Below, in pieces: positions 5,901 to 29,526 of a DNA stretch of 33,917 nucleotides (the stretch's first letter is position 1; the number at the start of each line of letters is the position of its first letter). The stretch covers positions 1-33,917 of the IMG/VR virus record IMGVR_UViG_3300032893_000206, one strand, 5' to 3'. Under the pieces are notes generated by a model, which did no database searches, was not told where the DNA came from, and saw nothing but the letters and a program-made list of their open reading frames with translations. A program made the translations under genes and the position numbers. This stretch comes from a virus.

Positions 5901-6088
5901 TAAGAAGCCCTTGAATCCTTGACCGTAATGCCCTTGCGCTTAAAGCCCTCGGCCGCTTGGACCGCGTTCTGCTCTAAGACAGAACCAAACTGATTGACTT
6001 TCTGCTTGGTCACGTCCCCTGCGGCCGGCGCCGGGCTATGCTGCGGAATAATCAAGACTTCTGAATTTTGAATGTTTATATCGTCCAT
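5900..6088 (-). CDS. Small KRKG-motif protein, 62 aa
   Basis: The C-terminal half (VNQFGSVLEQNAVQAAEGF then KRKGITVKDSRAS) matches the C-terminal half of the next gene upstream (6088-6315), so the two are tandem duplicates. The N-terminal third is short and hydrophobic (EVLIIPQ) with a Pro/Ala linker. The start overlaps the upstream stop by one base (TAATG at 6088-6090), and its own stop overlaps the next start in the same way. It has no signal peptide or membrane segment. The function is unknown; its position between ejection-type and fibre genes suggests a minor virion or assembly role. Confidence 0.75.
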   Translation of the reverse strand: MDDINIQNSEVLIIPQHSPAPAAGDVTKQKVNQFGSVLEQNAVQAAEGFKRKGITVKDSRAS

Positions 6089-6315
6089 TAGGATGACCTA
6101 CTGTCTTTCACCATGATTCCTTTGCGTTTAAAGGCCATAACAGCGTTTACAGCGTCCTTTTCAAGCTCAGAGCCAAATCGCTTGACCTTAGAGGCCGTAG
6201 CATCGCCTACAGCCTTCACAGGAGAGGCTTTCTGAGGCACCACCATGACTTTAGGGGTCTCAGGCTTGGCGATCTTGATGGATATTTCTATTGTTTCGTC
6301 GGGTTCATTCGACAT
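6088..6315 (-). CDS. Small KRKG-motif protein, 75 aa
   Basis: The start is placed at the ATG at 6315 (MSNEPDETIEIS), with AGGGG about 8 bases upstream and an 11-base overlap with the previous gene. The frame is open to 6459 but only across that gene. The product has an acidic N-terminus, a Lys/Val/Pro segment (KVMVVPQKASPVKAVGD) and the C-terminal block VKRFGSELEKDAVNAVMAF then KRKGIMVKDSRSS. This block is shared with the downstream gene, which marks a tandem duplication. The function is unknown. Confidence 0.75.
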   Translation of the reverse strand: MSNEPDETIEISIKIAKPETPKVMVVPQKASPVKAVGDATASKVKRFGSELEKDAVNAVMAFKRKGIMVKDSRSS

Positions 6316-6487
6316 GGGTAAACCCCTTGCGCTTGGGCTGATATTCTTTATGGCCTTCCTGGGCCTTGCGCTTCTCTGAGAGCATGATTGCGACTGCCTG
6401 TTTAGGATTGCTGACTTCTGGTCCCTTTTTAGAGCCTGAATGGAGCTTTCCTTCTTCAAACTTCGGCATTACTTTATTCCAGGGCAT
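6305..6487 (-). CDS. DUF6496-like small protein, 60 aa
   Basis: The product contains MPKFEEGKLHSGS and NPKQAVAIMLSEKRKAQ, the pattern I associate with the DUF6496 family of small proteins found in phage and bacterial genomes ('GKLHSGS...KQAIAIALSEARKA'). It has a strong Shine-Dalgarno (AGGAGG, then ATAT, then ATG). The C-terminus reads PKRKGFTHVE, bringing the KRKG motif of the neighbouring genes into a different protein context. The function of the family is unknown to me; the basic helix suggests nucleic-acid contact. Confidence 0.8.
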   Translation of the reverse strand: MPWNKVMPKFEEGKLHSGSKKGPEVSNPKQAVAIMLSEKRKAQEGHKEYQPKRKGFTHVE

Positions 6488-6495
6488 ATATCCTC

Positions 6496-6672
6496 CTATC
6501 TCGTATTCCCATCTCGATTGTGATCGGGAAGCTCGCCCATGATGGAGGGGCGGCCGATGCGGTCTGCAACGTTATCCTGGTATTGTCCTCCTGGAGTGTT
6601 CATGTTTACAGCTTTCCTTCGCTTCAAAGCTTTCTCGTCTAATTCCTGCTGTCTTGTCTTTTTAGGTTCCAT
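6496..6672 (-). CDS. Small basic protein, 58 aa
   Basis: The gene is read from an ATG at 6672 to a TAG at 6496-6498. The ribosome-binding site AGGAGG lies 5 bases before the ATG and overlaps the previous gene's stop. The protein starts MEPKKTRQQELDEKALKRR, an amphipathic basic helix, and later has DNVADRIGRPSIMGELPD. The RIGR tetrapeptide is also in the previous gene (NRIGRYTDVN), and KRR is a variant of the local KRKG motif. The spacing to both neighbours is only a few bases. The function is unknown. Confidence 0.75.
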   Translation of the reverse strand: MEPKKTRQQELDEKALKRRKAVNMNTPGGQYQDNVADRIGRPSIMGELPDHNRDGNTR

Positions 6673-6680
6673 AAGTCCTC

Positions 6681-6884
6681 CTATGTCAAATCCTGTGGAT
6701 TAACGTCTGTGTAGCGCCCGATCCTGTTTTGAGGCATCGCTGATCCCATGACGGGATCATTCTTAATCGCCGCTTGCGCGGCATCGTTCATTTGCTGGCT
6801 AGGCGTTCTAGTGCCTATAGCCTTCGCCGCCACCCTTACCCCTTTCCTCTTGAACATTTGCTCCGGTAAATCGCTAGGATTCAT
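6681..6884 (-). CDS. Small KRKG-motif protein, 67 aa
   Basis: The start at 6884 has a good ribosome-binding site (AGGAG 6 bases upstream) and overlaps the preceding tiny gene by 11 bases. The N-terminus MNPSDLPEQMFKRKGVRVAA carries the same FKRKG(I/V)xV motif found at the C-termini of two genes further along. Then come a helical Ala-rich segment (MNDAAQAAIKNDPVMGSAMP) and NRIGRYTDVNPQDLT. It has no membrane segment. The function is unknown, but the motif links it to the rest of the array. Confidence 0.75.
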   Translation of the reverse strand: MNPSDLPEQMFKRKGVRVAAKAIGTRTPSQQMNDAAQAAIKNDPVMGSAMPQNRIGRYTDVNPQDLT

Positions 6885-6978
6885 ATAGGACTCCTTTTGG
6901 GCCTTGACCTAGCAATCCGCTAGGGGTAAGATGGGGGTGGAGAGATCCTATGACTTGGACAATGGCCATCGTTGTCAT
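6874..6978 (-). CDS. Tiny protein, 34 aa
   Basis: The gene runs from an ATG at 6978 to a TAG at 6874-6876. It has GAGGAG just upstream, an ATGA overlap with the preceding tiny gene (6975-6978), and an 11-base overlap with the following one. The product, MTTMAIVQVIGSLHPHLTP..., has a short hydrophobic start and a Gly/Pro-rich end (SGLLGQGPKG). The ideal coupling at both ends is the main evidence; the protein itself is not recognised. Confidence 0.55.
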   Translation of the reverse strand: MTTMAIVQVIGSLHPHLTPSGLLGQGPKGVLYES

Positions 6979-7082
6979 CGTTCTCCTCGAAATCCTTCAT
7001 ACTTTGAATCGAATTGATTCAAAAGATCAAAGACATCCCTCAGATTGTTCTTGCCAAAGTTGTGTAGGCTATTAATTGCCAT
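6975..7082 (-). CDS. Tiny protein, 35 aa
   Basis: The ATG at 7082 lies inside the end of the ejection-type gene (11-base overlap), and the stop at 6975-6977 forms ATGA with the next start. The product, MAINSLHNFGKNNLRDVF..., is hydrophilic and helical, with acidic and basic residues alternating (LLNQFDSKYEGFRGER). With its neighbour it fills what would otherwise be a 190-base gap in a gene-dense operon. The function is unknown. Confidence 0.55.
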   Translation of the reverse strand: MAINSLHNFGKNNLRDVFDLLNQFDSKYEGFRGER

Positions 7083-8403
7083 TTTGTTGTAAGTACCTTG
7101 CCACCAAAGCTTGAGCTTGTGGGCTAGTTCCCATCTTTTCAAGAGCTGATAAAAGCGGGTTCATTGCTTTATTTGCAATCGATCCGGCTGCGGTTTGTAA
7201 TCCAGCGACAAATGGGGCGTGATATAACCCACCGACCATCTTTCCGCCTTCATAACCTATCGCTGCTCCTCCTGGACCACCCAATACTCCACCAATAGAT
7301 GCGCCAGCAGCCGCCGGCACTTGTTTAGCGAGCATCGCTAATTTAGAAGGCTTTCCCCCCTTATTGACGGCTTCCATAGAAGAAAAGGATTCCCCTAGTT
7401 TCTCTCTCGCATAAACTTGATTTGCCGCTTTCACATCGGGCGCTGCTTTTCCAAGCTCTTCATTGATATGAGTTTTGATCGCTGACCATTGTCGAAATAC
7501 GTCACGATTATTTTGAACTGATGGCTGAGCCATAATACTGTTGATCGAATCCAAGGCATTTTGAGCCTCTTGAGGCGTGGCCGTTTGCCCTTGCGTAATC
7601 TTTCCTAGAACCGTATTTATGTCATCCATCTTTATTGCTTTTGTCGGATTGATCCGTTCTACATTCTCAGGAGTCAAAGAACTTACGTCATTGGTTACGC
7701 CTTGATTTATCCCGGCTGCTTGTTTTGCTGCTCCTATCTGTTCTCCAGCTTTGTCAACGTTACCGCCAGCCAAAATAGCCCCAGGATCGTTATAAAGCCT
7801 TTGGAAGTTTCTAGCTGGAACCCCTGTCCTAGCTTCTCTTGCCTGTGCAACATCCAAGGGCAATTCATCTGGGTGATTGGCAGATAAACCAGATGCAGGT
7901 ACATAAGATCGCGGATCAACGGCTGCACCCGCCAACATCCCGGCCGCCGCGGAAGCGTAGGGATTTGCTTTCATTTCCCCAAGCTTACCAGCGACATATT
8001 CAGATACAGGCTGTGAAGCTTGCCCTAAAGTCGCGGAGAATCGAAGTGGCAAAGAAGCGATCTGGCCTGCTGTATCCAAAGTCTGTTGAACTGGCCCACC
8101 TTGAGGCTTTGTAAATGGATTGATCCCTTTGAACGGCTGAACCTCTGGACGCGATAAAGCTTGCTGAGCATAAGGAGCTATGGCATTCCCTACGTCACGG
8201 ATGGGCTGTGCAATAGCTTCCATGGTCGCATTAGCCGGTTGACCTTGTGTCTGGCTCGGAACTTTAGCCTGGGCCTGAGATCCGTAGCCATTTTCATAGC
8301 CATAAGAAGTATCAGTAGAGCCAGAATCGGCAGGCGCACCGCTTCCATAGCCGTTTAAGTACCCGTAATCTTCTTTAGGTTTATCTGCCATTGGCTTGAC
8401 CAT
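7072..8403 (-). CDS. Probable internal virion / ejection protein, 443 aa
   Basis: The N-terminal about 60 residues are low-complexity with repeated Y(L/E)NGYGS units. The middle is Ala/Gln-rich and mostly helical. Residues about 345-440 include a glycine-zipper-like stretch (AAGASIGGVLGGPGG, AAIGYEGGKMVGG), common in phage proteins thought to cross membranes. Its place after two other Gln-rich proteins mirrors the run of ejection proteins (gp7, gp20, gp16) in P22-like phages, so delivery into the host at infection is inferred. Two starts are possible, ATG 8403 (MVKPMADK) or ATG 8391 (MADKPK); neither has a convincing ribosome-binding site, and 8403 overlaps the upstream gene by 23 bases. Confidence 0.75.
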   Translation of the reverse strand: MVKPMADKPKEDYGYLNGYGSGAPADSGSTDTSYGYENGYGSQAQAKVPSQTQGQPANATMEAIAQPIRDVGNAIAPYAQQALSRPEVQPFKGINPFTKPQGGPVQQTLDTAGQIASLPLRFSATLGQASQPVSEYVAGKLGEMKANPYASAAAGMLAGAAVDPRSYVPASGLSANHPDELPLDVAQAREARTGVPARNFQRLYNDPGAILAGGNVDKAGEQIGAAKQAAGINQGVTNDVSSLTPENVERINPTKAIKMDDINTVLGKITQGQTATPQEAQNALDSINSIMAQPSVQNNRDVFRQWSAIKTHINEELGKAAPDVKAANQVYAREKLGESFSSMEAVNKGGKPSKLAMLAKQVPAAAGASIGGVLGGPGGAAIGYEGGKMVGGLYHAPFVAGLQTAAGSIANKAMNPLLSALEKMGTSPQAQALVARYLQQNGN

Positions 8404-18223: not shown

Positions 18224-18457
18224 CTATTGCCCTGCCACAGGGACGTTAATTAACGATTGCAAGGTCGTTGCCACAGTCGGCTGATTGGTAGCGATATTTT
18301 GAATCAACGTCTTGATCGAACTTGCCGATGTCCCAGTAGGGACCATCACCTGAACGGGCTGCATTGTTCGCGTTCCGTCTGTCACCGAAATGAATAGGTA
18401 AGTATTTGTGCCATCGTCTGACGCGCCGACAAGTGTTGCAGAGTATGGATTAGCCAT
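18224..18457 (-). CDS. Small protein, 77 aa (paralogue of 5667-5900)
   Basis: The product starts MANPYSATLVGASDDGTN and ends INVPVAGQ. It has the same length as the product at 5667-5900 and aligns with it along its full length, sharing MANPY, DGTNxY, DG, GTxA, NQP and GQ. It overlaps the upstream glycosyltransferase gene by 8 bases. It lies immediately before a signal-peptide gene, as its paralogue does. The function is unknown. Confidence 0.8.
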   Translation of the reverse strand: MANPYSATLVGASDDGTNTYLFISVTDGTRTMQPVQVMVPTGTSASSIKTLIQNIATNQPTVATTLQSLINVPVAGQ

Positions 18458-19274
18458 TGGGTATTAGCTCCTTTTTGAAGGCATCAAATTCCTTCTTGTA
18501 TTGTTCAAAGACAAAAGGAACTGGCTCCGTTGTCTTTGCAAATTCAAAGCGCCCAAACTCTAGAGAAGTCGGTTCAAGCGTGACTCGTGGATGCTGAATC
18601 GCATTTTCTTCAATAAATTCGTCGGTATATCGTGGATAAAGCGTCTTGAGACATAATTTCATCTTCTCTAAGCGCCGAGAGTAGTCCTTTAACTCGCAGT
18701 AGTGGTTAATTTTTATGCCAGAATCGGCTACTTGGTAGGGATACTTGGAGAATTCTTCTCCATAGTGGCGATAGGAATTGCCGGTAATATCTCGATGATA
18801 AAAGTCCTCGTTCTGTGAACCGTAAGCTCCCGCATAATGGAGACCAAATTTTCTTGCGTGGATGTTTTTCCATCGAGTTGCACGTCCTTTTGTGATTTCA
18901 GTTTGAAAATCTCCCGCAAAGCTCTTAATCGTCGTCCACCAGGCCAAAGGCCCCTGCTCTAATGGCTTAAATTCGGTGATTATCATGTCGGGATGCAAGA
19001 AAATGATCGCATCCCCTGTGGCTTTCTCGATACAAGCGTTAAAAGCCGCGTCATAAGCCGCCGTGTCGGAAGGGTGAAAATTCGGATGACGGAAAGCGAT
19101 CAACTTCTCATGCGCGTAGGTTTTTTTGATGTGGTTTAGGAGTTCTCGCGTTCCATCATCCGACTTCTCATCCAAAGCGTAAATAAATTGGCAGATATAG
19201 GGCAGAGCCGCCATCACGGAGTAGCCAATAAAGTCCACCTCGTTCAATACGGGGGCAATCGCTGTGAGTTTCAA
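18450..19274 (-). CDS. Glycosyltransferase family 2-like, 274 aa
   Basis: The N-terminus AIAPVLNEVDFIGYSV and the segment IYALDEKSDDGTRELL match the GT-A fold, in which the Asp-rich DEKSDDGT binds the nucleotide. IIFLHPDMIITEF is the place of the usual DxD strand, though the motif here is HPD. The C-terminal part (residues about 130-274) is helical and rich in Tyr/Phe/Lys. The start overlaps the methyltransferase stop as ATGA (19271-19274). It is part of the sugar cassette. Glycosyl transfer to an unknown acceptor is likely; the weak DxD lowers confidence in full activity. Confidence 0.8.
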   Translation of the reverse strand: MKLTAIAPVLNEVDFIGYSVMAALPYICQFIYALDEKSDDGTRELLNHIKKTYAHEKLIAFRHPNFHPSDTAAYDAAFNACIEKATGDAIIFLHPDMIITEFKPLEQGPLAWWTTIKSFAGDFQTEITKGRATRWKNIHARKFGLHYAGAYGSQNEDFYHRDITGNSYRHYGEEFSKYPYQVADSGIKINHYCELKDYSRRLEKMKLCLKTLYPRYTDEFIEENAIQHPRVTLEPTSLEFGRFEFAKTTEPVPFVFEQYKKEFDAFKKELIPNG

Positions 19275-19870
19275 GCGGTAGCCTCCATGGTGAGTGAAAT
19301 AGGGTCCTTATTCACCGTATCAACGTTGTGTGAACAGTCTTTGATCCCATACGGCATCCATTTAAGTTTCTTCATGTTTTTGAATCCGGCTTTATGCAGA
19401 AGATTCAGAAGTACAGGGAATGTAAAACCCGTATAGTGAAAAGCTAAATCGTAGCCTTGATCTCCCCAAAGAATATTGCGGATATAATCACCCATTCCTA
19501 ACTTCAAATAGAGCCTTATCGCTGCGTCAAAATCGGGGACAGAAACAAACAACTTTCCTCCAGGCCGCAAAACCCTGTGCCATTCTTCAAGCACATAAAG
19601 CGTCCTTTGATGCGAGAAGTGTTCTAGGCAATGCGAGGCGTAAATCTCTTCTACGGTCTTATCCTTGCAGAACGAAAGGTCTGAAATATCTGAGACATAA
19701 TCGACTGTAGGCCCAGACTTCAAATCAACCGTCTTAAAGCCCGGTATGACCGTATCCCGGCCACCCAGGTTCAACTTGATCGCTTCCCCAGCCTCTAAAC
19801 AGTTCCCGTTTACCCTAGATGCGTCCATCTTGGGTGCTGTTGACTGCTTAGAGGCCAGGGTCGCTTTCAT
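19271..19870 (-). CDS. SAM-dependent methyltransferase, class I, 199 aa
   Basis: Motif I appears as KLNLGGRD (residues 32-39), the acidic SAM-ribose residue as KTVDL (D49), and the later strand as YASHCLEHF (78-85) followed by LRPGGKLFVSVPDF (101-114). This is the Methyltransf_11-like pattern, typical of enzymes found in glycan gene clusters. It has one catalytic domain and no target-recognition domain, so DNA methylation is unlikely. Methylation of a sugar or lipid intermediate is more consistent with the neighbouring glycosyltransferases. It starts 4 bases after the coat gene stop. Confidence 0.88.
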   Translation of the reverse strand: MKATLASKQSTAPKMDASRVNGNCLEAGEAIKLNLGGRDTVIPGFKTVDLKSGPTVDYVSDISDLSFCKDKTVEEIYASHCLEHFSHQRTLYVLEEWHRVLRPGGKLFVSVPDFDAAIRLYLKLGMGDYIRNILWGDQGYDLAFHYTGFTFPVLLNLLHKAGFKNMKKLKWMPYGIKDCSHNVDTVNKDPISLTMEATA

Positions 19871-19874
19871 TTAC

Positions 19875-20918
19875 TTAGAGCTTCTCGTGAACGAACAACA
19901 ATCGACCCGCCGAAGGATTCAAGGCCACGGCCACGCCGTAGATCTTGTAGGTCACATCGACGAATTGATCGAAGGGATCGTTCTTGTCTGGTCCTCGTGC
20001 CACAATCATTTTGACGTTCCCGTCTAGCGACGTGAAGCCAAAGGCTTGCTGGCCGAAGATAAAGACTGCGTTGACGCTATGTGCAGTTACCGCATAGCGT
20101 GGAGCTAGGGCTGACTGAACGAAGCGAACCCCGTTAACCGCCATTCCTACCTCACCTTTGTACATGGTCTCTTTCGAGTTCTGATACTGGTTCCAGTCTT
20201 TCCAGTTCGTGTCTTTCATAAGTGTATGAAGCGCATTGGGATGCGCGTAGCCCACGAAATACCCATCAGCAAAGGGCTTCGCGAATTTGCCGCGAAGCAC
20301 CGTGACGGTTTTACGAATGGAGTAGGTGGAAAGCATCGCCGAGAATGTCGGGGCCGTCTTTGACACCGCCGATAGGCGGGTCACAGATGCTCCGAAGATA
20401 GCAGGGAATTGGAATTGAATGTCATTCGCTTCCGTCCCTGTGGTCGCGCAGAAGGCAGACGCAACGGATGACATGTAAGCAGAAAAGTTAGTTGTGCTAA
20501 CTTGGTTCTTATTGATGTCAGCCTTGTAAATCCCCATCTGGCACATTCTTTCTACGGTTTCAGCCGCCGAGTCCGCTAAGCGTTCCATCGCTCCGTTGAC
20601 GGCATCAAAGATGGTCGTCATGGTGGTGAGGTCGGTCAGTTTCACTCCGCGTCCGTAACCTGCAATCGTGCCCGAGACTTTACGAGAAGAAAGCGCGATC
20701 AGGGAGTTCGCCGTACCTTCTGAGAGGGTAGACGATGCTCCGGTGATGCGGTTCCATCCGTTAAAAGTCGCGGTGGTACCTGTCCGCAGAGGGAGCTCAT
20801 CGCGTTGCGCGAACTCGATCAGCGGAGTTTTAGGGACTAACGTCGCAATAATCTTGCGGCTGAACCAACTCAGCAGCATGTTATTTAACGTAGTCGTGGT
20901 TGTATTAGTATCGGCCAT
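19875..20918 (-). CDS. Major capsid protein, N4-gp56 family, 347 aa
   Basis: The N-terminal helix (LLSWFSRKIIATLVPKTPL), then RDELPLRTGTTATFNGWNR and the segment STLSEGTANSLIALS, KVSGTIAGYGRGVKLTDLTTM, are the hallmark layout of N4-gp56/P22-type HK97-fold coat proteins. The C-terminal region (FIFGQQAFGFTSLDG, NDPFDQFVDVTYKIYGVAV) is the usual final P-domain strand set with an aromatic-rich end. The length of 347 fits the family. It follows the scaffold gene. The start at ATG 20918 has only a weak ribosome-binding site, unusual for the most expressed virion gene; an AGGAG lies about 17 bases upstream. Confidence 0.92.
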   Translation of the reverse strand: MADTNTTTTTLNNMLLSWFSRKIIATLVPKTPLIEFAQRDELPLRTGTTATFNGWNRITGASSTLSEGTANSLIALSSRKVSGTIAGYGRGVKLTDLTTMTTIFDAVNGAMERLADSAAETVERMCQMGIYKADINKNQVSTTNFSAYMSSVASAFCATTGTEANDIQFQFPAIFGASVTRLSAVSKTAPTFSAMLSTYSIRKTVTVLRGKFAKPFADGYFVGYAHPNALHTLMKDTNWKDWNQYQNSKETMYKGEVGMAVNGVRFVQSALAPRYAVTAHSVNAVFIFGQQAFGFTSLDGNVKMIVARGPDKNDPFDQFVDVTYKIYGVAVALNPSAGRLLFVHEKL

Positions 20919-25646: not shown

Positions 25647-25835
25647 CTAGTTATCGATTAGCTGTCGGAACGGATTTCTTGCGTCATAACAGGATCTGCA
25701 ATAGGCCGTTCCTCTGTGCAAGATCTCTGCGGCATGTTTGCCGTAAATACATTCATATCCGGATACCAGCTTTGGCACTTCCACGATTTCCCTTTGGATT
25801 TGGATCTGCGGTTTCTGAATCGTTTGCTGTTTCAT
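25647..25835 (-). CDS. Small degenerate zinc-ribbon protein, 62 aa
   Basis: The start overlaps the large terminase stop as ATGA (25832-25835). The C-terminal half, YECIYGKHAAEILHRGTAYC then RSCYD, has the order of a treble-clef zinc ribbon (CxxC-x-PA...GxxYCxxC) but keeps only one cysteine in the first knuckle. The N-terminal third is Gln-rich (MKQQTIQKPQIQIQREI). The function is unknown. Confidence 0.7.
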   Translation of the reverse strand: MKQQTIQKPQIQIQREIVEVPKLVSGYECIYGKHAAEILHRGTAYCRSCYDARNPFRQLIDN

Positions 25836-27304
25836 GCGGCATCCCCAATTCTTTTATCCATGGCGTATCCCCACCGGGCGCCGTAGTCTCTGGAATTAGA
25901 GGCCCATTCATAGACTTCTTTTGGCTTCCAGGTCTGTCCTTGCCCGACTTGATAACGAGGCTTTCCTTCCATGGAAGCCGCTACAGCATCAAGCGGTACG
26001 TTTTGATGACCGGAATTGGGCTTAACTAAATCAGGCGAGAAGCAATACGCAAGCGCATCGACTAAATCATCATGTTCTTTGGATTTGTCGTCCACTCGGT
26101 AAGCGAAGATCTGAGCCCGTAGAAGGCCCATATCGGGATGAATATGGATTGTGCGTTGCTCCCAGCGGCCGACAAGACCGCCGATTCTTGAATCGGACCA
26201 CTTTGCTTGGCCGCGGTGCTGAAGCTCTACGTACTTGAAATCAAATAACTGATAACGAGCAATCGCTTCCCGGAGGGAATATTCAATGGCTTGGCCTTTG
26301 CGCTTTTCAATCCCCACCACATCCGGCTTCTGGTAGATAATTGTCTTAACAAGCTCATTTACGACATCGCCCGGATCTTCTCGTCTAATGCCTTTGGCCT
26401 CTAAAACCCAGGCTTGATTGCCATGCGTAAAGCCGACAGTAACAATCGCCGTATAATCGCCATCATCCTCCGAGTAAGCGGGATCGCAAACCGTTACTTT
26501 TCTAGCCCATCGCATCCCGTCAGGCAATGACGTATAGAGCGTTTCAAACTGTCTCTTAAACGGCTGAGTAGCCGGGTCAATTCTCTGCAAAAGATATTCC
26601 CTGGCGAAATTGATCGATCCCATTTCTTTTCGCTTGGTATTAAGGGCTTCGGGGCTCCAGAGTTCGGGGAAGAGGGCTTTGCCGTTTGAGAGGGCTGGCT
26701 TTTTCCATTTGGTATAGGCTTCGTTTCCTTCAAGCTTTTCAAGCAAGTCTCCGAAGTTAACGGGCGTTCCAACTGTGACGAGCTTCGTTTTTTCCATCGC
26801 CATGCCGGTGATGACGCCAAAGTACGCCCTTTCTTGATCTTCATCGGTCATGCCTCCCAGGTCTTTCAACGGATCATCGACAATAATGTCATCAGGGTGA
26901 CGACCCCGGCTAGAAGTACCGAAGCCAAGGCCAGAAATAAAAGAGCCATTAAGAAATGAGAGCTGATCGGTTCCCCATATTTCTTTGGTCGTGGGACGGA
27001 GCGGAGCGAGGAATTCATTGTTTTCTACCATCAGCCGCAAATCCCGAATGAGCTTGCGGCATTGGTCCTCCGAATACGAAATGAGCAAGATTTCCCGCTT
27101 GCCGCGGATGACCCGCCAAAGCGGATAAGCAATCGACCAGAAATGGGATTTGCCATGGCCGCGGGGAGCTTGAATAAGTAGGCGGTCATGATTCAGGATC
27201 AGATCTTCCCAATCGGCATAATGGCTCGGCCATTTCATGTTCAGGAATTTGCGCGTGAAGTATTCCATGGACGACTGCGCCAGGAGCCACGGATCAGGAT
27301 TCAT
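25832..27304 (-). CDS. terL: Terminase large subunit, 490 aa
   Basis: ATPase domain: Walker A APRGHGKS at residues 46-53 and Walker B IIVDDP at 140-145 with the preceding DD. Coupling region: TKLVTVGTP at 173-181. Nuclease domain: DPAYSEDDGD at 274-283 gives the first acidic pair, and HDDLVDALAY at 411-420 gives the last, the standard RNase H-like triad layout. The length of 490 fits. The enzyme cuts concatemeric DNA and drives it into the head through the portal. The start overlaps the small-subunit stop as ATGA (27301-27304). Confidence 0.96.
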   Translation of the reverse strand: MNPDPWLLAQSSMEYFTRKFLNMKWPSHYADWEDLILNHDRLLIQAPRGHGKSHFWSIAYPLWRVIRGKREILLISYSEDQCRKLIRDLRLMVENNEFLAPLRPTTKEIWGTDQLSFLNGSFISGLGFGTSSRGRHPDDIIVDDPLKDLGGMTDEDQERAYFGVITGMAMEKTKLVTVGTPVNFGDLLEKLEGNEAYTKWKKPALSNGKALFPELWSPEALNTKRKEMGSINFAREYLLQRIDPATQPFKRQFETLYTSLPDGMRWARKVTVCDPAYSEDDGDYTAIVTVGFTHGNQAWVLEAKGIRREDPGDVVNELVKTIIYQKPDVVGIEKRKGQAIEYSLREAIARYQLFDFKYVELQHRGQAKWSDSRIGGLVGRWEQRTIHIHPDMGLLRAQIFAYRVDDKSKEHDDLVDALAYCFSPDLVKPNSGHQNVPLDAVAASMEGKPRYQVGQGQTWKPKEVYEWASNSRDYGARWGYAMDKRIGDAA

Positions 27305-27840
27305 GCGGCCTCCGTGTCCAGAGCTTCTTTGGCGAGTTGCTTGAATTTGGCTTCTATTTCGGGCGTTAGCTTGGGAAGGTTAAAGACGTTCTGGGTGATA
27401 CTCAAACTGGCAACCGTCTTGTAGGCGCCAGTCATTTTGGCTAGTTCTTTTAAATGATCGCGCTGGCCATCAGAGAAAGAATCGGTATAAAAGCCTTCTA
27501 AATTCTTTGCTGCCACATATTCCGGTGTCGGGATCTTGCAGAGGGCTTGAACCTTTTCATCTTCTTCTTGGAATACGGAAAGCTTTTTAACTAATCGCTC
27601 GGCCATCTCAGGCGTAACGCCGGATTTAGCTGTAGCTTCCGCGATATTCCATCCCGAATCTCGCCAGAGCTTCAGGAAATAAAGCTCGTCGCGATTTAAA
27701 TGCTTCAGGATAACGGCTTGAGGAGTCCGGGCCGGATTTCCGTCTTTATCGAATTTCAGGGGAACGGGGCTCTTGATTCCACGGATGCGGACTTGGCGGG
27801 TTCCGTCATTGACGGAGGATGCGAGTCCTTCTGGGCTCAA
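27301..27840 (-). CDS. terS: Probable terminase small subunit, 179 aa
   Basis: The product contains a helix-turn-helix-like segment (FLKLWRDSGWNIAEATAKSG, VTPEMAERLVKKL at about 55-90), a helical middle and a C-terminal ILKPLL-like tail, as in small terminases that recognise the packaging site. It is joined to terL by a 4-base overlap. No ATG or GTG is available near the start; the most upstream reasonable codon is TTG 27840, without a clear ribosome-binding site, so the true N-terminus is uncertain. Confidence 0.7.
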   Translation of the reverse strand: MSPEGLASSVNDGTRQVRIRGIKSPVPLKFDKDGNPARTPQAVILKHLNRDELYFLKLWRDSGWNIAEATAKSGVTPEMAERLVKKLSVFQEEDEKVQALCKIPTPEYVAAKNLEGFYTDSFSDGQRDHLKELAKMTGAYKTVASLSITQNVFNLPKLTPEIEAKFKQLAKEALDTEAA

Positions 27841-27894
27841 AGCGGCCGCGGGACAAACGAGATCAGGGGGTGACCGGACCTTCCCGCGCCGATT

Positions 27895-27938
27895 CCTCTT
27901 CCGGAGGAAATCGGGAAATCTGAATCACCCGGAAGAGG
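27895..27938. repeat. Perfect 10-base inverted repeat upstream of terminase genes
   Basis: Arms CCTCTTCCGG (27895-27904) and CCGGAAGAGG (27929-27938) are exact complements around a 24-base loop. The loop contains GATTC-type sequence that could pair with bases beside the stem (GAATC), allowing a pseudoknot. It lies in the 116-base non-coding gap between the sugar-enzyme gene and the small terminase gene. Candidate roles are a packaging (pac) site, an mRNA leader structure or a weak attenuator; there is no T-run that would make it a standard terminator. Confidence 0.6.
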
Positions 27939-27940
27939 TT

Positions 27941-27950
27941 TACTAGAGTA
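27941..27950. repeat. Copy of the 10-base repeat (TACTAGAGTA)
   Basis: This is an exact copy of the repeat also at 13896-13905 and 30965-30974, here in the opposite orientation, just beside the inverted repeat that precedes the terminase genes and just downstream of a putative leftward promoter. Confidence 0.4.
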
Positions 27951-27956
27951 TTACTA

Positions 27957-29165
27957 CTATAAATACGCTAAATTCGCCTTTTTGTCAAGGGCTAGGTCGA
28001 AAGATTCATAAATCCAGGCAATATCATCTTCGGTCAAACCCTCATGGCAAGGGATATAAAAGCCCTGTTTATTGATCCTATCCGCCACCGACCAATTCAT
28101 CTGATTCTGTCTTAAAGGCTTGATGAGAAAGTCATAGCAGGGCTGGTTCGTAATGGGCATCATTTCTCTGGTCTCAATGCCTCGGTCCTCAAGTCTAAGG
28201 CATAAATCCGTTTTGGAGATCCCGGCATCTTCTTTGAGTACAATGGGATACATCATCCAGGTATGATTCTTGCGGCAATCCTCTTTGGGAAGCTCTAAAT
28301 CTTCAAAATCTTGCAAGGCGCTTGTAATGGCGGAAGCCACAAACCTTCTCTGCCCCACTTTCTTCGGGAGATCCTCCAGCTGCGCCAAGCCTAAAGCCGC
28401 CTCAAACTCCGTTCCGCGGCATGAATAGCCGATCCGGTTAAACTTAAAACGGCGCTCTAACAAGGCCCTTGAAACCTTCGGAGACTGATAGCCGGGGATA
28501 TAAGCTTGATCTCTCCCATGGTTAGCCAAAGACCTCATAATCCAATTCAGCCGGTCATCATTAGTCAGGGCAAAGCCCCCAACCCCTGTCACTAAGTGAT
28601 GGGCCATGTAAGTCGAATGGCATCCGATTTCTCCCCAAAGAGGGTTCAAGATCGTTTCGCAGCTATCTTCCAAGACTTTCGCGTTATACTTCTTCGCCAG
28701 CTCATAGAGCTTTGAATCGCAATCGGAGCCAAAGAGCTGCACCGGGATTATCGCTTTGACTCGCTTCCAATGATCCGAGAGTTCGGGTTTGGGGCCATTG
28801 GTATGGCCGTAGTTCCAGGGATTCATCGTGTAATCGTACATCCCCACATCCACAAAATAGGGCTTCAATCCGGCTTGCAATACGACATTCACCGTCGCGA
28901 CAAATGTCAAAGAAGGCACTAAAACGAGATCCCCATCCTTCCAGCCATATTTCTCTTTTAACGCCAAAAGCCCGATTCTTAGGGCATCCGTCCCGGAGTT
29001 CACAAAGACGCAATGCTTGGCATGATGAAGCTCCGCGAGCTTTTCCTCAAACTCCTTGACCTTCTTCGCAGGAGAAAATTGACCGGAAGCTAGTACATCC
29101 AAAACAGCCTTCTTAATCTTCGGAGTGATTTCTAACGGAGTGGCAAGTGAGATCCTACGCGACAA
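27957..29165 (-). CDS. DegT/StrS-family PLP enzyme with Lys-to-His change (sugar 3-dehydratase-like), about 402 aa
   Basis: Family motifs are clear: FSPAKKVKEFEEKLAEL, the phosphate-binding NSGTDALRIG, PSLTFVATVN, and the PLP-nitrogen aspartate in KVLEDSCE. Members that act as sugar aminotransferases have a lysine in '(T/S)KxxxxGEGG'. Here the segment reads STYMAHHLVTGVGG, so the lysine position is His (residue 189 from the TTG start; codon 28601-28599). ColD and RfbH/DdhC-type enzymes, which remove a C3 hydroxyl, also have His there, RfbH with an AHH string. This predicts a 3-deoxysugar product, not an amino sugar. The start is ambiguous: TTG 29165 gives the 11-base overlap common here, while ATG 29195 or 29234 lie deeper in the upstream gene. 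It may feed the glycosyltransferases at 14686-19274. Confidence 0.9.
   Translation of the reverse strand: MSRRISLATPLEITPKIKKAVLDVLASGQFSPAKKVKEFEEKLAELHHAKHCVFVNSGTDALRIGLLALKEKYGWKDGDLVLVPSLTFVATVNVVLQAGLKPYFVDVGMYDYTMNPWNYGHTNGPKPELSDHWKRVKAIIPVQLFGSDCDSKLYELAKKYNAKVLEDSCETILNPLWGEIGCHSTYMAHHLVTGVGGFALTNDDRLNWIMRSLANHGRDQAYIPGYQSPKVSRALLERRFKFNRIGYSCRGTEFEAALGLAQLEDLPKKVGQRRFVASAITSALQDFEDLELPKEDCRKNHTWMMYPIVLKEDAGISKTDLCLRLEDRGIETREMMPITNQPCYDFLIKPLRQNQMNWSVADRINKQGFYIPCHEGLTEDDIAWIYESFDLALDKKANLAYL
27960..27988 (-). promoter_or_regulatory. Putative leftward promoter for terminase/late operon
   Basis: On the leftward strand TTGACA (27988-27983) is a perfect -35, followed 17 bases later by TATTTA (27965-27960), a poor -10. 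It overlaps the last codons of the sugar-enzyme gene, so coding constraint could produce it by chance. It would place the inverted repeat in the 5' leader of the terminase mRNA. Confidence 0.35.
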
Positions 29166-29526
29166 ATGTACCGTCCTGATAAAAGCTGTAGCCATCCATG
29201 ACGGAGTTATTCCCCCCGTCCTTCCCGCCGCCATACCGACTGAATACCCTAAACTTGTAAACCTTCCCTACCGTCAGCCCCGTCAATGTCACCGAATGAC
29301 TCGTCACCAGCGGATTCGTATCAGTCTCAGCAGTCGTTAATTGCGTATTGGGATAAACGCCATAAGCCACCCGGCTGCTGGAAGCCGCTGAAGTAGTCCA
29401 AGTGACCGTTGCAGATCCCCCACCCGTCCCACTTACACTCACGGCGCTGATCGTGATCGGAGTCACATTCCCAGGATCATCCGTCAACTTCTTCTTCGGA
29501 TCGTCAAACGTACCGGGAATGGGCAT
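29155..29526 (-). CDS. Fibronectin type III-domain protein, 123 aa
   Basis: The start is ATG 29526, overlapping the upstream stop as TGATG. Residues about 25-115 are one FN3-type beta-sandwich: ITISAVSVSGTGGGSATVTW, then SSSRVAYGVYPNTQL, HSVTLTGLTVGKVYKFRV and FSRYGGG, with the typical W, the L-x-x-L-x-x-G-x-x-Y turn and the final Y/F strand. It has no signal peptide. Phages often add such domains to virion surfaces for weak sugar binding. Here it is a free-standing gene next to a sugar enzyme, so carbohydrate contact is an attractive but untested idea. Confidence 0.82.
   Translation of the reverse strand: MPIPGTFDDPKKKLTDDPGNVTPITISAVSVSGTGGGSATVTWTTSAASSSRVAYGVYPNTQLTTAETDTNPLVTSHSVTLTGLTVGKVYKFRVFSRYGGGKDGGNNSVMDGYSFYQDGTFVA

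Follow-up and report, generated by a model that had tools for sequence, protein, structure and literature searches.

According to PMC8987622, which sets out their mechanisms, the well-characterised sugar 3-dehydratases are three only: E1, ColD and SpnQ. E1 (the DdhC/RfbH type, CDP-4-keto-6-deoxyglucose 3-dehydrase; 3bcx) and ColD (GDP-4-keto-6-deoxymannose 3-dehydratase; 2gms, 3b8x, 3gr9) have a DegT fold with histidine in place of the catalytic lysine. E1 and SpnQ bind a [2Fe-2S] cluster by four cysteines; ColD has no such cluster and recycles PMP with glutamate (PMC8987622). SpnQ, which is also of the His-type, is able to transaminate without its reductase (PMC8987622). Nucleotide-sugar genes are known in environmental phages generally (PMC10980836). 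His-type DegT proteins are carried by Synechococcus phages S-H68 and ACG-2014f and by marine virus AG-345-D19, and the S-H68 copy is already annotated as CDP-4-dehydro-6-deoxy-D-glucose 3-dehydratase. In the two of these records that are annotated, the His-type gene sits among nucleotide-sugar and glycosyltransferase-type genes. In the literature collection searched, no paper connects 3-dehydratases with phages and DegT proteins, and none connects them with cyanophages.

The DNA analysed here, referred to as the window, is a stretch of 33,917 nucleotides (IMG/VR virus record IMGVR_UViG_3300032893_000206) that contains portal, capsid, terminase and tail-type genes. It encodes a His-type DegT enzyme at 27957-29165, the position given in the initial annotation, which left the strand unstated. 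The reading frame is on the minus strand, and the plus strand is closed by many stops in this region. The translation contains the three motifs first pointed out, NSGTDAL, VLEDSCE and MAHHLVTGVGG, and belongs to the DegT family according to Pfam (PF01041, 223.9 bits against a cut-off of 19.8, model positions 3-358 of 360). The histidine at the PLP-lysine position is termed His212 according to the numbering of the 425-aa ORF, and corresponds to His189 of the initial annotation. The codon at 28599-28601 reads CAT and not a lysine codon, and all 13 family members have histidine at this column. The replacement of lysine by histidine is therefore neither a chance feature nor a single-read error, because the 13 members agree and the site lies within a high-scoring DegT domain; a sequencing error is rejected as its source. 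The TTG start is preferred to the ATG start of the longer ORF, because the starts of the enzyme in relatives coincide with it and because the same short overlap between the enzyme gene and the upstream fn3-like gene is present in records L006 and L012. A promoter and terminator scan of 27.8-32.4 kb gives 11 promoter-like sites, with 6.9 +/- 2.3 expected, and terminator-like sites at chance level; it is not used here. The features of the locus are listed in Table 1.

Table 1. Positions of the enzyme gene, its active-site codon and the neighbouring phage genes in the window
Feature	Position	Strand	Basis or remark
Fn3-like protein, 130 aa	29155..29547	minus	Pfam fn3, 30.4 bits; 3' end overlaps TTG start of enzyme gene
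His-type DegT ORF, longer version (P0001)	27957-29234	minus	ATG start, 425 aa
His-type DegT enzyme	27957..29165	minus	TTG start, 402 aa
His212 codon CAT	28601-28599	minus	PLP-lysine position; kept in 13/13 family members
Probable small terminase subunit (TerS)	27301..27840	minus	Position only: adjoins TerL in relatives; no PHROG match
Large terminase subunit (TerL)	25832..27304	minus	phrog_38, 217.8 bits
Major capsid protein	19875..20918	minus	phrog_1357, 123.5 bits; directly precedes glycosyltransferase cassette
SAM methyltransferase of cassette	19271..19870	minus	Methyltransf_11
GT2-like glycosyltransferase	18450..19274	minus	Weak: Glycos_transf_2, 22.9 bits, slightly below cut-off; conserved in relatives
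GT2 glycosyltransferase, 517 aa	16474..18027	minus	Glycos_transf_2, 72.3 bits
GT2 glycosyltransferase, 239 aa	15758..16477	minus	Glycos_transf_2, 109.6 bits
Group 1-like glycosyltransferase, 372 aa	14686..15804	minus	Glyco_trans_1_2, 42 bits

Close relatives of the window enzyme are found in viral contigs at 58-69% identity, and a wider search extends the family down to 37% identity. A capsid-based search gives three further members (L161, L162 and L170), and a viral scan with the member L013 as the query gives no intermediate. The best cellular matches are about 33% identical, in a search that took one genome per species and was pattern-based, and may therefore have overlooked cellular copies of higher identity. 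A search of 398 Pseudomonadota genomes for a close cellular source at E 1e-60 gives no match, but it had no positive control and its empty answer shows nothing. In the 13 family members, 61 of the 402 positions are invariant, including NSGT, EDSCE with the catalytic Asp190, Ser207, Tyr209, His212 and the TG-x-GG that follows it. The sole invariant lysine, Lys93, is far from the His motif in sequence.

An acidic residue three positions after the catalytic aspartate is present in 10/10 members of the window family, 21/23 other His-type proteins and 5/111 Lys-type proteins, and is a mark of class rather than a significance test, because related sequences are not independent. ColD shares this acid with the window enzyme, as well as the lack of the Fe-S ligand set. 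The two enzymes differ in that the window enzyme has alanine, not serine, before the histidine and is phage-borne, and their identity in the structural alignment is only about 25%. E1 also has alanine at this position, and shares with the window enzyme an A-H-H-x motif followed by GRD and PG residues. However, the [2Fe-2S] ligands of E1 are Cys193, Cys251, Cys253 and Cys261, and the window family keeps only the Cys193 equivalent. In its likely mechanism the window family thus resembles ColD, although it is not a member of the ColD group. All four cysteines are present in RfbH relatives, in S-H68 and in a marine virus. Residues specific to the window family are Ser271, Trp98, Pro360 and His70. 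Ser271 replaces, throughout the family and in contrast to ColD, the otherwise near-universal asparagine of the GYN-x-R loop, which in related enzymes reaches from the second subunit to the phosphate of PLP. Most members have a shortened loop between the acid and the His strand; L013, L162 and L170 are the exceptions.

In a tree of 145 DegT proteins, 33 His-type proteins and one Arg-type protein are separated from all 111 Lys-type proteins (SH-aLRT 100). When the active-site block and long branches are removed and bootstrap is added, 31 His-type proteins, among them the window family, ColD and E1, are still separated from 38 Lys-type proteins at 100/99. This tree is unrooted, and its sample was chosen mostly for resemblance to the query, so that it does not amount to an unbiased survey. 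The window family forms a deep branch on the His side, which agrees with the initial placement of the enzyme among the 3-dehydratases rather than firmly inside the Lys-dependent aminotransferases. AU tests, for which the groups were named after the tree had been seen, reject grouping of the family with ColD (p-AU 0.008) and with E1 (p-AU 0.007), and tolerate grouping with an 'AHN' group from phages (L014, L016), Omnitrophota (L028) and Nanoarchaeia (L032) (p-AU 0.38). This last group is of the His class as well, but has a YIAHN motif and extra cysteines near the E1 cluster-ligand region. By sequence, the window gene belongs to a distinct phage-only lineage of His-type DegT enzymes, and the initial comparison with ColD and RfbH/DdhC does not extend to membership of either group. 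The presence of such an enzyme in a phage is less unusual than first stated, because a His-type DegT is also found elsewhere among phages, in several groups that include the cyanophages. The S-H68, ACG-2014f and AG-345-D19 proteins belong to other subfamilies, either E1-like with four cysteines or ColD-like, and nucleotide-sugar epimerase/dehydratase genes lie near them in the two annotated records, whereas the window's group is without these.

The sampling also gave further DegT genes. The His-type proteins at L143:5869-7164 and L149 near 6001-7116 (S-H68 and AG-345-D19) have all four Fe-S cysteines of E1 and are apparently phage-borne E1-type 3-dehydratases. Members of the 'AHN' group at L028:7935-9131 (Omnitrophota) and L032:7983-9215 (a Nanoarchaeia MAG), as well as those of L014 and L016, have their cysteines clustered near the E1 ligand sites. 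A phage DegT at L017:9956-11092 has arginine at the PLP-lysine position (YVSRIITTGSGG), and a Lys-type DegT gene (L017 from 7283) lies near it on the same strand. The 2570-bp record L147 (OR851175.1), which bears the name 'Salmonella phage S.Kent 1-2-1', has a gene whose product shares 88.8% identity with E1 over the aligned part; this is perhaps not phage DNA but an O-antigen gene of a host.

The AlphaFold2 model of the window enzyme, built from 47 alignment rows, has a pLDDT of 94.6 and a pTM of 0.93. In a Foldseek search with this model, the top ranks go to sugar aminotransferases and GDP-perosamine synthase, while ColD is at rank 18 and E1 at rank 31; all of them align over nearly the entire length. 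The predicted fold alone cannot tell a dehydratase from an aminotransferase. The best structural neighbours, GDP-perosamine synthase and related Lys-type sugar aminotransferases (3bn1, 3dr4, 7b0m), and the highest NCBIfam score of the protein, that for the aminotransferase PseC (TIGR03588), would fit an ordinary aminotransferase that uses a different lysine. This reading is very improbable, since these neighbours have the catalytic lysine and fall on the opposite side of the 100/99 split, which sets the enzyme apart from all Lys-types, and no invariant lysine lies near the histidine. Identity with PseC is rejected by a score of 178.2 bits, far below the cut-off of 423.5, and by the lack of lysine at the site. 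It is scarcely credible that the enzyme is an E1/RfbH-type 3-dehydratase that depends on an Fe-S cluster and E3, even if E1 (3bcx) is the closest single PDB sequence by phmmer (E 2.5e-36). Three of the four ligands are missing, the score for NCBIfam RfbH (NF011936) is 158.8 bits against a cut-off of 423, and the AU test rejects membership. In addition, a search for the E3-type domain PF00970 (FAD_binding_6) gives no match in nine long records; the host could supply an E3, and the window is a fragment.

Two further readings differ from dehydration of the expected substrate. The protein could be a pseudoenzyme, namely a PLP- or nucleotide-sugar-binding protein or a structural or regulatory partner, perhaps for a Lys-type DegT encoded next to it. 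The loss of the lysine, the Asn-to-Ser change in the conserved loop and the adjoining Lys-type paralogue in G004 and G008 point in this direction; however, the catalytic aspartate, the acid at the third position after it, NSGT, Ser207 and the histidine are all among the invariant positions, and most family members show no Lys-type DegT in their record, so that this reading is quite unlikely. It is less improbable, but still unlikely, that a PMP-dependent His-type enzyme has another outcome, such as epimerisation or isomerisation, an amino transfer that is not catalytic, or a dehydration in which the substrate is not an NDP-4-keto-6-deoxyhexose. The deep separate branch, the four family-specific residues, the shortened loop and the transamination by SpnQ are consistent with such an outcome, but the histidine, the acid and the fold are common to enzymes whose known shared reaction is C3 deoxygenation. 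Since the family branches apart from ColD and from E1, the two characterised groups, its chemistry may have drifted.

Downstream of the enzyme gene and on the same strand, the genes for the probable TerS, TerL, portal, scaffold-like protein, capsid protein, methyltransferase, four glycosyltransferases and tail proteins follow. The glycosyltransferase cassette proposed initially is thus present in the same phage, and the four glycosyltransferases and the methyltransferase are found downstream of the capsid gene in every long relative. The homologue of the fn3-like protein in L006 also has a Laminin_G_3 lectin-like domain. PF01370, PF16363, PF00483 and PF04321, which represent 4,6-dehydratase, ketoreductase and nucleotidyltransferase families, have no match in the long records of the group. 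A complete sugar pathway within the phage is therefore rejected, also in view of the missing PF00970, and the phage would depend on host nucleotide sugars.

The enzyme is present in eight of the nine long records of the group. It is missing from G174, which carries the cassette, so that the presence of the cassette does not depend on that of the enzyme. The enzyme is not seen in G186, and the shorter G184 has a different gene at its site, FkbM-like by eye and without a Pfam match. A 245-aa protein of this kind, with no Pfam match at E 0.001, lies at this site in a relative without the enzyme (L173:2503-3237). In the G004 and G008 lineages, a Lys-type DegT lies immediately 5' of the His-type gene (L005:8797-9858 and L009:8932-9975; 67% identical to each other), and an extra PF13712 glycosyltransferase is present at the capsid locus, about 9 kb off, only in these lineages among the relatives examined. 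This co-occurrence, in two lineages only, is no more than suggestive. Between the window and G007, the capsid protein and TerL are 96% and 90% identical, but the enzyme and TerS are 55% and 52% identical. Comparison of the enzyme-TerS stretch (27301-29165) with G007 and G011 gives 49-55% identity, against 85-96% for the capsid protein and TerL. These discordant identities indicate that this stretch is exchanged or diversifies fast, and suggest, at the sequence level, cassette exchange at the enzyme-TerS site. G004 carries an integrase, so that some members of the group may be temperate.

We infer the reaction, the substrate and the use of the enzyme from its sequence, conservation, class, predicted fold and gene context. 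The window enzyme probably performs C3-deoxygenation chemistry, and the biochemical prediction made initially is reasonable to this extent. On balance we lean towards a PMP-dependent, Fe-S-free 3-dehydratase, ColD-like in mechanism, that acts on a host-made NDP-4-keto-6-deoxysugar and feeds the glycosyltransferase cassette. The separate branch, the Asn-to-Ser change in the GYN loop of the entire family, the lack of matches to sugar-pathway families in the long records of the group and the occurrence of the cassette without the enzyme in G174 count against this ColD-like reading. According to it, a PMP/PLP-dependent DegT-fold dehydratase, in which His212 replaces the Schiff-base lysine and serves as the acid/base, would remove the C3 hydroxyl of the sugar nucleotide. 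It would need neither an Fe-S cluster nor an E3 reductase, and PMP would be regenerated from an amino donor, as in ColD. A host enzyme would then reduce the NDP-4-keto-3,6-dideoxysugar; in the two related phages, the adjacent Lys-type DegT would perhaps aminate it instead. That the product is delivered to the phage's own glycosyltransferases is plausible, but slightly more doubtful than the reaction. These glycosyltransferases, co-oriented with the virion genes, would probably attach the sugar, with either the virion or a polysaccharide of the host as the acceptor. Virion glycosylation is a reasonable guess, because the glycosyltransferases are linked to the capsid gene, and glycans on the major capsid proteins of mycobacteriophages Che8 and Rita are reported in work cited in PMC11256854; a host polysaccharide may be the target instead.

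A broader and rather unlikely proposal is that this phage-only, Fe-S-free lineage acts together with the capsid-linked cassette to place a 3,6-dideoxysugar on the virion, or a 3-deoxy-4-amino sugar in the two relatives that have the adjacent Lys-type DegT, and that the lineage passes from phage to phage as a sugar-type module. A further phage-borne 3-dehydratase branch that lacks the Fe-S ligands would broaden what is known of the chemistry. If the ColD-like reading is true, phages edit host nucleotide sugars with one enzyme, and probably alter their own or host surface glycans in this way.
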